DNA from: Ruminiclostridium papyrosolvens DSM 2782
Lineage (GTDB): Bacteria; Bacillota; Clostridia; Acetivibrionales; DSM-1351
Reading direction: 5' to 3'
DNA: 64,000 bases
Assembly (NCBI RefSeq): GCF_029318685.1
Contig: NZ_CP119677.1
Coordinates: forward strand, 2,781,001-2,845,000
The position numbers and the translations under genes were made by a program. The notes beneath the pieces were generated by a model. The model saw only the letters and a list, made by a program, of their open reading frames with translations, searched no databases and was not told the DNA's origin. Shown in pieces: positions 27,735-63,526 of this stretch; the first letter of the stretch is position 1, and each line of letters begins with the position of its first letter.

Positions 27735-28508
27735 TTATAGTATGATAATACTTGTTAATAATAGCAATATTGAAAACAGCATTGCTATATAATCCATACC
27801 AATGAAGCCATATGTCTTATATCCGCTGTCTCTGCTTCTTAAATTAAAGCCTCTCAATTCGGCAGATATTGCACTGCCCTCAATCCGTTTAACTGAGGAT
27901 ATAAGAAGCGGAACACAAAGTGGAAGTACTAATTTTAGCTTCTTTACAGGGTTTTTTGTATCAAACTCAACTCCTCTTGCAGTCTGGGCTTCAATTATAC
28001 CCTTCATTTCATTTTCAAAAATGGGTATAAACCTAAGAGCGGTTGTAAATGCAAAGGTGTACTTATATGGTATATGAAATTTTTGCACCATAACATTAGT
28101 AAGATCGCTCATTCTGGTAACTGTAAGAATTATAACTAAAGGCATGGTTGCCCCTACAAGTCTCAAAACCAGCAGTATACTGAATTTCAAGCCTATATCA
28201 GTAATGTATAAATTGAAGGGAAGAGTTAAAAGTATATTCCCGGTTCTTATGAAGAAGACCTGCAACAAAAAAAGTACAATGCCTATTTTAAATAGTGTAA
28301 TCAACAAAGACAAGGCTTTGTCAAAAATTTGAGCAAGATAGGCTATGAGAAGGTTTACTGCAATAATTCCAATTGTAAAGTAAATGTTATTGTTGGCAAA
28401 GCTGCTCAAGCAAATCAGAAAAGCGACTATCATTTTTGATAAAGGGTTTAACCTGTGTATTATGGTCTCGCCCTGACTGTATTCCAAAATACCCTTCACA
28501 TTATACAC
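27735..28508 (-). CDS. ecfT: ECF transporter transmembrane subunit
   Basis: This is the T subunit of an energy-coupling-factor importer, 257 residues with about six membrane segments. It has the cytosolic coupling motifs AQTARGVEF (first ARG) and GSAISAELRGFNLRS (second A-RG). Its start overlaps the ATPase gene by 8 nt. It is the last gene of the trpP-ecfA-ecfA-ecfT operon. Confidence 0.93.
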   Translation of the reverse strand: MYNVKGILEYSQGETIIHRLNPLSKMIVAFLICLSSFANNNIYFTIGIIAVNLLIAYLAQIFDKALSLLITLFKIGIVLFLLQVFFIRTGNILLTLPFNLYITDIGLKFSILLVLRLVGATMPLVIILTVTRMSDLTNVMVQKFHIPYKYTFAFTTALRFIPIFENEMKGIIEAQTARGVEFDTKNPVKKLKLVLPLCVPLLISSVKRIEGSAISAELRGFNLRSRDSGYKTYGFIGMDYIAMLFSILLLLTSIIIL

Positions 28509-29310
28509 CCTCTCTCTTGGCTTTTTGTGATATAGTTTCTGTCATTTCATCCACTGTAAATACATCCTCAAAATCTGTCCCAAGCTTTAATGACAACTCC
28601 ACTATCTGCGGTGGTGCAAGGGAGGCCTCCTTTAATACTTCCGGGCGGGACATTACCCTCCGGCAAATATCGTCTGCAAGTATACGACCATCCCCCACAA
28701 CAACTATTCTTTGTGCAAAATCCGCAACCAGCTCCATATCATGGCATACCATAACAACAGTCGTTCCGCTACTGTTCAGCTCATTTATTGTTTCCATTAT
28801 ATGCATACATTCCTTGTAGTCTAATCCGGTTGTAGGTTCATCCAATACAAGTATTTCCGGCGACAAAGCCAATACTGATGCCAGTGCGACTTTCTGTCTC
28901 TCTCCCCTGCTCAGGGAAAATGGGTCCTTGTCAGGAAGCAAGCCAAATTTTTCTATTGTGCTGCTGCATCTTTTTTCAATGTCAGCATTGTCTGTCAGTA
29001 TACATTTCAGTCCAAATTCTATCTCTGCCTTAACAGTATTGCGACAAATCTGTCTGTCGGGGTTTTGAAACAGAAATCCTACATGTTTCGCCAACTCACT
29101 TGTTCTTGTATAAGAGGTATTAAGGCTCGCAATGTTGACTACACCCGATGTGGGTTTCAGCAAGCCGTTTAGGAGTTTCATAAGAGTAGTCTTTCCTGCT
29201 CCATTTCTGCCCACAATAGCAACAAATTCTCCTTTTTTTACAGAAAGGTTTATATTGTTAAGAATGTTATTTTTGTCATATGCGAAGCTTACGTTATCGA
29301 ACTTTATCAC
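28501..29310 (-). CDS. ecfA: ECF transporter ATPase subunit (second)
   Basis: This 269-residue ABC ATPase has Walker A GRNGAGKTT, Q-loop FLFQNPDRQI, signature LSRGERQKVALA, Walker B ILVLDEPTTGLD and the switch His in MVCHDMELV. It pairs with the ATPase encoded just upstream (4-nt overlap) to drive the importer. Confidence 0.95.
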   Translation of the reverse strand: MIKFDNVSFAYDKNNILNNINLSVKKGEFVAIVGRNGAGKTTLMKLLNGLLKPTSGVVNIASLNTSYTRTSELAKHVGFLFQNPDRQICRNTVKAEIEFGLKCILTDNADIEKRCSSTIEKFGLLPDKDPFSLSRGERQKVALASVLALSPEILVLDEPTTGLDYKECMHIMETINELNSSGTTVVMVCHDMELVADFAQRIVVVGDGRILADDICRRVMSRPEVLKEASLAPPQIVELSLKLGTDFEDVFTVDEMTETISQKAKREGV

Positions 29311-30155
29311 CCGAGTACGCTCCTGACCATGGTTTCGGCTTCCGCAACATTTACAGGAACCGGTCCATTGTATATTTTGAGCTGATTAAGATTGTTTGCC
29401 AGAGTTGCTACCCTTGGGCAGTTAACACCAATATCCGTCAATTTGGATGTATCACTCAGCACCTCTTTTGGTGTACCATCCAGATAGATTTTACCTTTGT
29501 CCAATATTATGATTCTCTTTGAAAACTCGCTGAGCAACATTATTTTCTGCTCAACTACTATTATTGTTATGTTCAGTTTTTGGTTCAGCATTTTTAACAT
29601 ATTATATATCTGCTGGCTGCTTTGCGGGTCTAGTTCGGCAGTTGGCTCGTCAAGTACCAATATGTCAGGCATCAATGCAACTACAGCCGCTATGGCAACC
29701 TTTTGCTTCTGACCGCCGCTTAGTGTGTTGATGTTTCTATACCGCAAATCTTCTATACCAACCATTATAAGTATATCTGTTATTCTCTGCTGAATTTCTT
29801 CCTTGGGGACTCCGAAATTTTCCAGACCAAATAATATCTCATCTTCTACAACTGAGGATACCATTTGTCCGTCGATATCCTGAAATACACTTCCTACGCT
29901 CAACGCCAGCTGTGTCAGTGATGAATCAACAGTATCACACCCCTTGACCCTGACCGCACCATAAAAATCTCCGTCATAGTGATGTGGGATAACCCCGTTA
30001 ACTGCATAGGTAAAGGTTGACTTGCCCGCTCCGCTGTTTCCTATGATACCCACGAAATCACCCTTTTGTATAGAAAGGTTTTTTATCACCAAAGCAGGCT
30101 CTTCACCTGCTTTGTATTTAAATGAAAAATCCTTGAACTCAATCATCTCTTCCAC
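29307..30155 (-). CDS. ecfA: ECF transporter ATPase subunit (first)
   Basis: This 282-residue ABC ATPase has Walker A GNSGAGKST, Q-loop SVFQDIDGQM, signature LSGGQKQKVAIA and Walker B ILVLDEPTAELD. The switch-loop His is replaced by Glu-Gln (IVVEQKIML), as is usual for ECF ATPases. It overlaps the substrate-subunit gene by 17 nt. Confidence 0.95.
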   Translation of the reverse strand: MEEMIEFKDFSFKYKAGEEPALVIKNLSIQKGDFVGIIGNSGAGKSTFTYAVNGVIPHHYDGDFYGAVRVKGCDTVDSSLTQLALSVGSVFQDIDGQMVSSVVEDEILFGLENFGVPKEEIQQRITDILIMVGIEDLRYRNINTLSGGQKQKVAIAAVVALMPDILVLDEPTAELDPQSSQQIYNMLKMLNQKLNITIIVVEQKIMLLSEFSKRIIILDKGKIYLDGTPKEVLSDTSKLTDIGVNCPRVATLANNLNQLKIYNGPVPVNVAEAETMVRSVLG

Positions 30156-30699
30156 GTCCTAATGCCAGTTTTACAGGTATATACAGAATCTGAACTATTA
30201 CTGCATTTGCTAAAGCAGTTGCCAGTATTATTATTGAAAACATATTGAACGGTATTGCTTTTACGTCCGCACCTGCATAAAACGCAATATACAATACTCC
30301 AAGGTAAGTAAGTCCGCTTGCAAGAGTACTTAGAAAAGTAGCCAGTACGGGTTTTAATAGTGAATAGGCTCTAAATTTGATAGGTAGGCTAATGAGTAAA
30401 GCCATTACCAATGCACCTAAAGGCTCACTTATTATATTAATATACGGTGTACCCGGGAAAACCTGACAGATTGCTCCTGCTATGATACCTATGATTATAG
30501 CTTCCGATAACCTTGGCTTTATTATGAGAATTGCCAGACAATACATTGCAATGATAAAATTCGGCTTCATACCGGCATTGAACATTGAGCCTACAAAGAA
30601 CTTGAGTACAGCTCCCGTTGCCAGTAACACACCTACGAGAATTACGTCAGAAATTGTAAGTCCTGCTTTTTTGTTTTTTTGAACTAATCTTTTTTCCAT
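30139..30699 (-). CDS. trpP: ECF substrate-binding subunit, TrpP-like (probable tryptophan importer)
   Basis: This 186-residue membrane protein has about six spans. LVGVLLATGAVLKFF, then GMKPNFIIAMYCLAILI and IIGIIAGAICQVFPG match the TrpP tryptophan transporter pattern (AIGAVLH, FGMKPD, GI-G-I-A-FPG). Encoded directly before two ATPases and EcfT, it forms a dedicated transporter. The leader carries a (G/U)AG repeat array of the kind bound by the tryptophan-sensing protein TRAP, which independently supports tryptophan as substrate. GGAGG before the ATG can be sequestered by a leader hairpin. Confidence 0.85.
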   Translation of the reverse strand: MEKRLVQKNKKAGLTISDVILVGVLLATGAVLKFFVGSMFNAGMKPNFIIAMYCLAILIIKPRLSEAIIIGIIAGAICQVFPGTPYINIISEPLGALVMALLISLPIKFRAYSLLKPVLATFLSTLASGLTYLGVLYIAFYAGADVKAIPFNMFSIIILATALANAVIVQILYIPVKLALGRGRDD

Positions 30700-30704
30700 A
30701 TAAA

Positions 30705-30736
30705 AACCTCCATCAATATTTTTTTGAGTAGAGGTT
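30705..30736 (-). promoter_or_regulatory. Hairpin that can hide the trpP ribosome site
   Basis: On the reverse strand AACCUCUA (30736-30729) can pair with UGGAGGUU (30712-30705), which contains the Shine-Dalgarno GGAGG, forming 8 bp with a 16-nt loop. The same upstream arm (CUCUACU, 30733-30727) can instead pair with AGUAGAG (30860-30854) inside the first TRAP repeats. TRAP binding would therefore favour the closed ribosome site, as in the B. subtilis trpE leader. Confidence 0.6.
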
Positions 30737-30785
30737 GTGAATTTGTGTATTTTATTTTAAGCAGCCAAGGCAAATAAAACCTATT

Positions 30786-30818
30786 AAAAAAACAGGTGTA
30801 CTCTTCCCTTTACTGTTT
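30786..30818 (-). terminator. Possible attenuator hairpin in the trpP leader
   Basis: AAACAG and CTGTTT (6 bp, 17-nt loop) are followed on the reverse strand by seven Ts just after the TRAP-type repeats. The stem is weak, so attenuation by termination is only a possibility. Confidence 0.35.
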
Positions 30819-30861
30819 CTAATCTCATCTCATCTAAACTCGTCTCTTCTCATCTCTACTT
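30813..30861 (-). promoter_or_regulatory. TRAP-type (G/U)AG repeat array in the trpP leader
   Basis: Eight NAG triplets (six GAG, two UAG) start every 5 nt without exception on the reverse strand (plus-strand complements at 30854, 30849, 30844, 30839, 30834, 30829, 30824 and 30819). An AAG precedes them at the same spacing (30859-30861) and a CAG follows at 3 nt (30813-30815). TRAP, the tryptophan-activated RNA-binding ring, binds such 2-nt-spaced triplets. They start at the predicted 5' end of the mRNA. Confidence 0.82.
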
Positions 30862-30867
30862 GTAAAG

Positions 30868-30897
30868 AATATAACATCCGTCAGCAATAATTGTCAA
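30868..30897 (-). promoter_or_regulatory. Promoter of the trpP-ECF operon
   Basis: TTGACA (30897-30892) and TATATT (30873-30868) are spaced 18 bp on the reverse strand. The -35 lies in a small inverted repeat, ATTGTC / GACAAT (30890-30895 with 30903-30908), a possible operator. Confidence 0.7.
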
Positions 30898-63239: not shown

Positions 63240-63526
63240 AACAAAGCCCCGTTCCATCAAAGGGACGAGGCTATTTTCGCGGTACCACCCAAATTATTTT
63301 GTAGCATGAAAAATAATAACATGACAATAATCACTTCGTTTTATAACGGCTCATCACCGGCACACCCTACTTCAGTATATGTTCCACACATATCATAGAA
63401 TTTCAGGCTGCAACTCATGGATGATTTTCAAAAGCTTGAACCTGCGGAAATTTCACCTCTCTTCCGCTCTCTGTGAAGCCAACTGCTTTCTACTCTTTCC
63501 AATCATCATATTTAGAATATAATATT
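63240..63526 (-). ncRNA. T-box leader of ileS
   Basis: A tRNA-sensing riboswitch on the reverse strand: the Stem I region includes the AGAGAG element (63470-63465 approximately) and an AUC Ile specifier candidate near 63425-63420; the T-box TGGGTGGTACCGCG (63291-63278) is followed by a terminator stem (GCCTCGTCCC with GGAACGGGGC, 63272-63245) and a T-rich tract. Uncharged tRNA-Ile should stabilise the antiterminator and switch on ileS. Confidence 0.93.

Follow-up and report, generated by a model that had tools for sequence, protein, structure and literature searches.

A putative TRAP-controlled leader on the tryptophan ECF importer operon of Ruminiclostridium papyrosolvens and its relatives

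The trpP operon and its leader

We have analyzed the leader of a four-gene operon, trpP-ecfA-ecfA'-ecfT, lying on the minus strand of a 64,000-nucleotide stretch of the Ruminiclostridium papyrosolvens genome (the window) and headed by a TRAP-type leader. The genes of the operon are as follows.

30139..30699, minus strand: trpP, predicted tryptophan S component (PF17099)
29307..30155, minus strand: ecfA, ECF ATPase, whose frame opens upstream and overlaps the end of trpP
28501..29310, minus strand: ecfA', second ECF ATPase
27735..28508, minus strand: ecfT, CbiQ-like transmembrane (T) component

The trpP product matched the Pfam family TrpP (PF17099) with 39.3 bits over a cut-off of 27.2, in a search whose B. 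subtilis control was also positive, and the two ECF ATPases and the CbiQ-like T component follow downstream. An S component, two ATPases and a T component are thus found in one operon, as expected of a dedicated ECF transporter and in agreement with the earlier note, which had read the locus as an ECF-type TrpP transporter operon. The same gene order recurs in nearly all trpP loci of other genomes with enough flanking DNA, which further argues for a dedicated ECF transporter. The role of TrpP as tryptophan transporter is a prediction drawn from the family match and from the Trp-linked leaders (TRAP or Trp T-box). Upstream of trpP the leader contains the following features.

30892..30897, minus strand: −35 box TTGACA; the promoter layout is alike directly 5' of the repeats in the compared trpP leaders
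30868..30873, minus strand: −10 box TATATT, spacer of 18 nt; +1 at ~30861 by inference, not mapped
30803..30861, minus strand: predicted TRAP-type site of 12 NAG triplets, including eight (G/U)AG with a 5-nt period; conserved in the genus
30854..30860, minus strand: AGUAGAG, first repeat, putative anti-anti-SD, complementary to the anti-SD arm
30779..30797, minus strand: weak terminator-like hairpin ACCUGUU-UUUUU-AAUAGGU, then UUUAUUU; strong terminators occupy the same place in other lineages
30729..30736, minus strand: anti-SD arm AACCUCUA, running on as CUC to 30726
30707..30711, minus strand: Shine-Dalgarno (SD) sequence GGAGG of trpP, within the hairpin 30736-30705

TRAP is a ring-shaped, textbook RNA-binding tryptophan sensor that has been studied mainly in Bacillus. 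On the minus strand the leader reads ACAAG TAGAG ATGAG AAGAG ACGAG TTTAG ATGAG ATGAG ATTAG AAACAG TAAAG GGAAG, that is, one AAG, eight (G/U)AG triplets at an exact 5-nt period and then CAG, AAG and AAG with spacers of 3, 2 and 2 nt. Both the unbroken run of eight triplets and its degenerate AAG and CAG flanks had been described in the earlier note and were recovered here; the chain of 12 triplets spans 30861-30803. The arrangement corresponds to the array that was sought (9–11 or more NAG triplets, mostly (G/U)AG, with spacers of 2–3 nt), and its 12 triplets are about what an 11-subunit TRAP ring would be predicted to take. Since TTGACA and TATATT separated by 18 nt place the +1 at ~30861, the repeats would begin at the very 5' end of the mRNA. 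The chain score of the leader was 8.3; the runner-up in the 64-kb window scored 2.9, and 10,000 Markov shuffles reached 4.5 at most. At least six consecutive NAG triplets at a 5-nt period are confined to the trpP leader within the 5.03-Mb genome (reversed-pattern control, 0), and a relaxed 4-triplet genome search returned, outside trpP, background only, below the count of the reversed-pattern control.

Downstream of the repeats, the SD hairpin consists of AACCUCUA/UGGAGGUU (8 bp) plus UCAA/UUGA (4 bp) across a 1-nt bulge, with a folding energy of −11.1 kcal/mol against −3.1 ± 1.9 for shuffles (z −4.2), so the 8-bp hairpin proposed to cover GGAGG is indeed found. Likewise, the 7-bp alternative pairing of the anti-SD arm with the first repeat is present as AGUAGAG:CUCUACU. 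What had been overlooked is the terminator-like hairpin between repeats and SD, which is weak in Ruminiclostridium and followed by an interrupted U tract; 11/11 leaders of the Thermoclostridium group and other families have a strong intrinsic terminator 19–28 nt 3' of the repeats, with a U-rich tail and an energy of −10.7 to −14.4 kcal/mol. No Rfam model matched the trpP leader even at E 1, and a T-box on this leader was rejected accordingly. The window does hold an ordinary T-box at 63258-63515 on the minus strand, which belongs to ileS.

Leader conservation and the distribution of mtrB

The gene for TRAP, mtrB, is encoded in the R. papyrosolvens genome (E 1.5e-38), downstream of a dnaE-like gene. 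Its product aligns with solved TRAP chains, and the residues matching K56 and R58 are invariant in eight TRAP homologues; together with K37, these positions form the known RNA-binding KKR motif of TRAP. In the TRAP proteins of L168 and L171 the K37 equivalent is an isoleucine, with the K56 and R58 positions retained. The homologue that the earlier note had asked for is therefore present in the species, and equally in all 11 genus genomes; in the order as a whole mtrB occurs in 53/58 genomes, covering 26 of 30 genera. An anti-TRAP search gave no match above cut-off, and its sub-threshold matches, mostly within long open frames, were read as DnaJ-type zinc domains and discarded.

Within the genus, trpP is found in ten of the 11 genomes, and all ten leaders keep the repeats, the anti-SD arm and the SD hairpin, with a single interruption of the repeat in two of them (L013 and L018). 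The (G/U)AG spacing, whose loss among relatives would have told against TRAP, is thus conserved. The remaining genome of the genus, G002, has mtrB but lacks trpP and any recognisable TRAP site, and its TRAP appears as an orphan. Beyond the genus, trpP leaders were scored for TRAP type before the location of mtrB was asked, and 45 of these non-genus trpP genomes were subsequently searched for the gene. It was present in 10/10 TRAP-flagged compared with 3/35 unflagged genomes (Fisher 9e-8, kinship ignored). The three unflagged genomes with mtrB (L090, L099 and L136) show, by inspection, a weaker set of NAG repeats close to the start codon, a remark that is largely post hoc. On the whole the leader was kept in relatives with mtrB and missing where mtrB was missing; an exception is G030, where a TRAP-type trpP leader (L177) stands in a 99% complete assembly in which mtrB was not found.

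These data bear on whether the repeat could be a fortuitous purine repetition, or serve another factor. TRAP sites are of low complexity and TRAP binding is here a prediction, which leaves such an origin some room; however, the uniqueness of the array in the genome, its conservation throughout the genus, its location at trpP and its co-occurrence with mtrB make this explanation very improbable.

Alternative pairings of the anti-SD arm

Complementarity between repeats and anti-SD arm was followed in 14 distinct leaders of Ruminiclostridium and the Thermoclostridium group. At the third pair of this helix, six of them have C-G in place of U-A and one shows the U-G intermediate, so that AGUAGAG:CUCUACU becomes AGCAGAG:CUCUGC, and the covariation score reached 0.152 against 0.081 for shuffled alignments (0/500), falling to ~0 when the partners were slid. 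This compensatory change amounts to a single event at the level of lineages. The substituted G falls outside the core of the SD hairpin in the Thermoclostridium group, hence the SD does not account for its complementarity to the repeat. Covariation of both alternative stems had been proposed as a check; it holds for the repeat:arm helix, whereas the SD hairpin is nearly invariant and uninformative in this respect. Other lineages show pairings of their own, such as GUUGAG:CUCAAC in L177, L178 and L181, or the −29.9 kcal/mol pairing of L188 (0/500 arm shuffles), and matching of each repeat with its own arm beat permutation (21/5040) in seven representative leaders across lineages. In the R. papyrosolvens leader alone, shuffled arms did as well in 24% of cases (p 0.24), and part of the complementarity is trivial, since a CU-rich arm of any sequence will pair with purine (GAG) repeats.

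Folding was considered for nascent RNA and at equilibrium. When the RNA stops just 5' of the SD, its first 30 nt pair with the core of the anti-SD arm in 21/21 leaders (P 0.54–0.80), and blocking the repeats, which mimics TRAP, closed the SD in the same 21/21. At equilibrium without TRAP, however, the SD of the R. papyrosolvens leader is open with a P of 0.01, its hairpin being the more stable structure by 4.5 kcal/mol, although some relatives open clearly (L093 0.57, L095 0.47, L177 0.46 and L191 0.38). Covariation and nascent pairing speak for an alternative that frees the SD without TRAP, while this leader's fold at equilibrium speaks against it; if the switch is real in this genome, it would consequently have to be kinetic and co-transcriptional.

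Taken together, these data make it probable that TRAP controls the translation of the tryptophan ECF importer through a switch in the leader. At low levels of free tryptophan, TRAP would stay unbound and the emerging anti-SD arm CCUCUACU would pair with the first (U/G)AG repeats; held there by the 5' repeats, the arm would leave the SD open once made, and trpP could be translated. At high levels, TRAP loaded with tryptophan would wrap the NAG repeats during their emergence, and the anti-SD arm, deprived of its partner, would close on GGAGG and turn the importer operon off. Here we infer that TRAP binds in dependence on tryptophan, which way the response runs and, in the genus, the kinetic persistence of the unbound state. 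As first sketched, TRAP was to take the repeats, free the anti-SD arm and shut translation; the site, mtrB, the covariation and the hairpin speak for this sequence of events, but the equilibrium fold, closed even without TRAP, would call for an added kinetic step.

TRAP might instead act mainly by transcription attenuation, its binding allowing a terminator to form between the repeats and trpP. TRAP-dependent termination is known from the trp leader of B. subtilis (PMC3913778, PMC4027176), all 11 Thermoclostridium-group and other-family leaders carry strong terminators, and R. papyrosolvens has a weak version with UUUAUUU. Against this, the genus hairpin is weak, its U tract is interrupted, and in most leaders the nascent RNA folds into the terminator irrespective of TRAP, with clear switching only in L012, L092 and L191, which renders attenuation an unlikely main mode. 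A candidate antiterminator pairing, GAGCCUG:CAGGUU, spotted by eye in other families, yielded no general switch in folding. Where a strong terminator does stand between repeats and SD, as in the Thermoclostridium group and other families, attenuation may add to the control. Less probable still is that TRAP binds at the 5' end without any anti-SD switch, for instance affecting mRNA stability, and that the SD hairpin does no more than hold constitutive expression low. In its favour, the leader of this genome folds into the SD hairpin at equilibrium with free and with blocked repeats alike, but the repeat:arm covariation and the independent complementary solutions in other lineages are better accommodated by the translational switch.

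The TRAP regulon and comparison with known systems

The trpE gene of R. papyrosolvens is preceded by a T-box (90.6 bits, just below the Rfam gathering threshold of 93; E 1.6e-20) with a specifier read as UGG, and no TRAP site was found at this gene, so that TRAP seems reserved for the importer in the genus. The simplest reading is that in Ruminiclostridium trpE came under the T-box, with TRAP retained at the importer. Other families of the order carry TRAP-type sites 5' of trpE, with a second overlapping the start of trpD inside the operon (loci including L223-L225, L228 and L239-L241), the names trpE and trpD being here a reading of translated starts, with no family search. Before trpE at L225:2213-2341 lies an array of 26 triplets, far beyond the need of one TRAP ring, and at L234:2086-2135 (reverse-complement coordinates) a TRAP-type site covers the start of the gene just upstream of trpP, which reads like a phenylacetate-CoA ligase.

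At seven trpP loci of other lineages (L090, L091, L094, L096, L098, L099 and L136) a T-box is followed by NAG repeats near or over the SD and start codon. Their T-boxes scored 68–87 bits, below gathering, with E 1e-12 or better, and mtrB is encoded in all seven genomes. We regard these leaders as candidates for dual T-box and TRAP control, as judged from their motifs; we know of no described leader joining the two, our search covering open-access papers. On balance we lean, by a modest margin, towards a picture in which Ruminiclostridium TRAP would be a single-target regulator of the importer, which would respond to free tryptophan through a kinetic repeat:anti-SD switch, with trpE left to a T-box sensing uncharged tRNA, and in which other clostridial lineages would combine a T-box and then TRAP repeats over the SD in one trpP leader.

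With sites at trpE, trpD and trpP, TRAP appears as a general tryptophan regulator of a whole clostridial order, and as TRAP is encoded and the RNA fold conserved in relatives, clostridia would use a Bacillus-type control circuit in a version of their own. The covarying repeat:anti-SD pairs offer a compact model of a protein-gated translation switch that is open to testing; leaders with T-box and TRAP repeats would allow one mRNA to read both free tryptophan and tRNA charging. We found no paper on clostridial TRAP leaders in the open-access literature searched, though clostridial mtrB may have been mentioned before.

The single elements are known from B. subtilis (PMC11255114, PMC4347634), namely TRAP, the (G/U)AG repeats, sequestration of the SD and a TrpP under TRAP control; their combination, together with the covarying anti-anti-SD repeat and the clostridial range, appears undescribed in the open-access papers searched. 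Since the ECF-type TrpP and that of B. subtilis belong to one Pfam family, TRAP control of this transporter family was known already. New are the leader architecture and the lineage; to this degree the claim that TRAP is extended to a clostridial ECF transporter stands, though it understated the generality of TRAP in the order. With respect to the clostridial T-box(Trp) leaders of trpP and trpE, including trpE of this genome, the genes and the response to tryptophan are the same, but T-boxes sense uncharged tRNA and the R. papyrosolvens trpP leader has none. B. subtilis trpP (yhaG) likewise encodes a tryptophan transporter, belongs to the same Pfam family and is under TRAP control; there TRAP sits on the translation initiation region as a direct block to ribosomes (PMC11255114), whereas here the site ends ~90 nt upstream of the SD and would need an RNA switch. 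Also among the closest systems is the B. subtilis trpE leader, in which, according to the part of PMC11255114 citing Du and Babitzke 1998, TRAP binds 5' (G/U)AG repeats and a downstream hairpin hides the SD when it is bound. Both elements are predicted here as well; the R. papyrosolvens leader differs in serving a transporter, in repeats that start at the predicted +1, in a first repeat that would itself compete for the anti-SD arm, and in the weak terminator of the genus.
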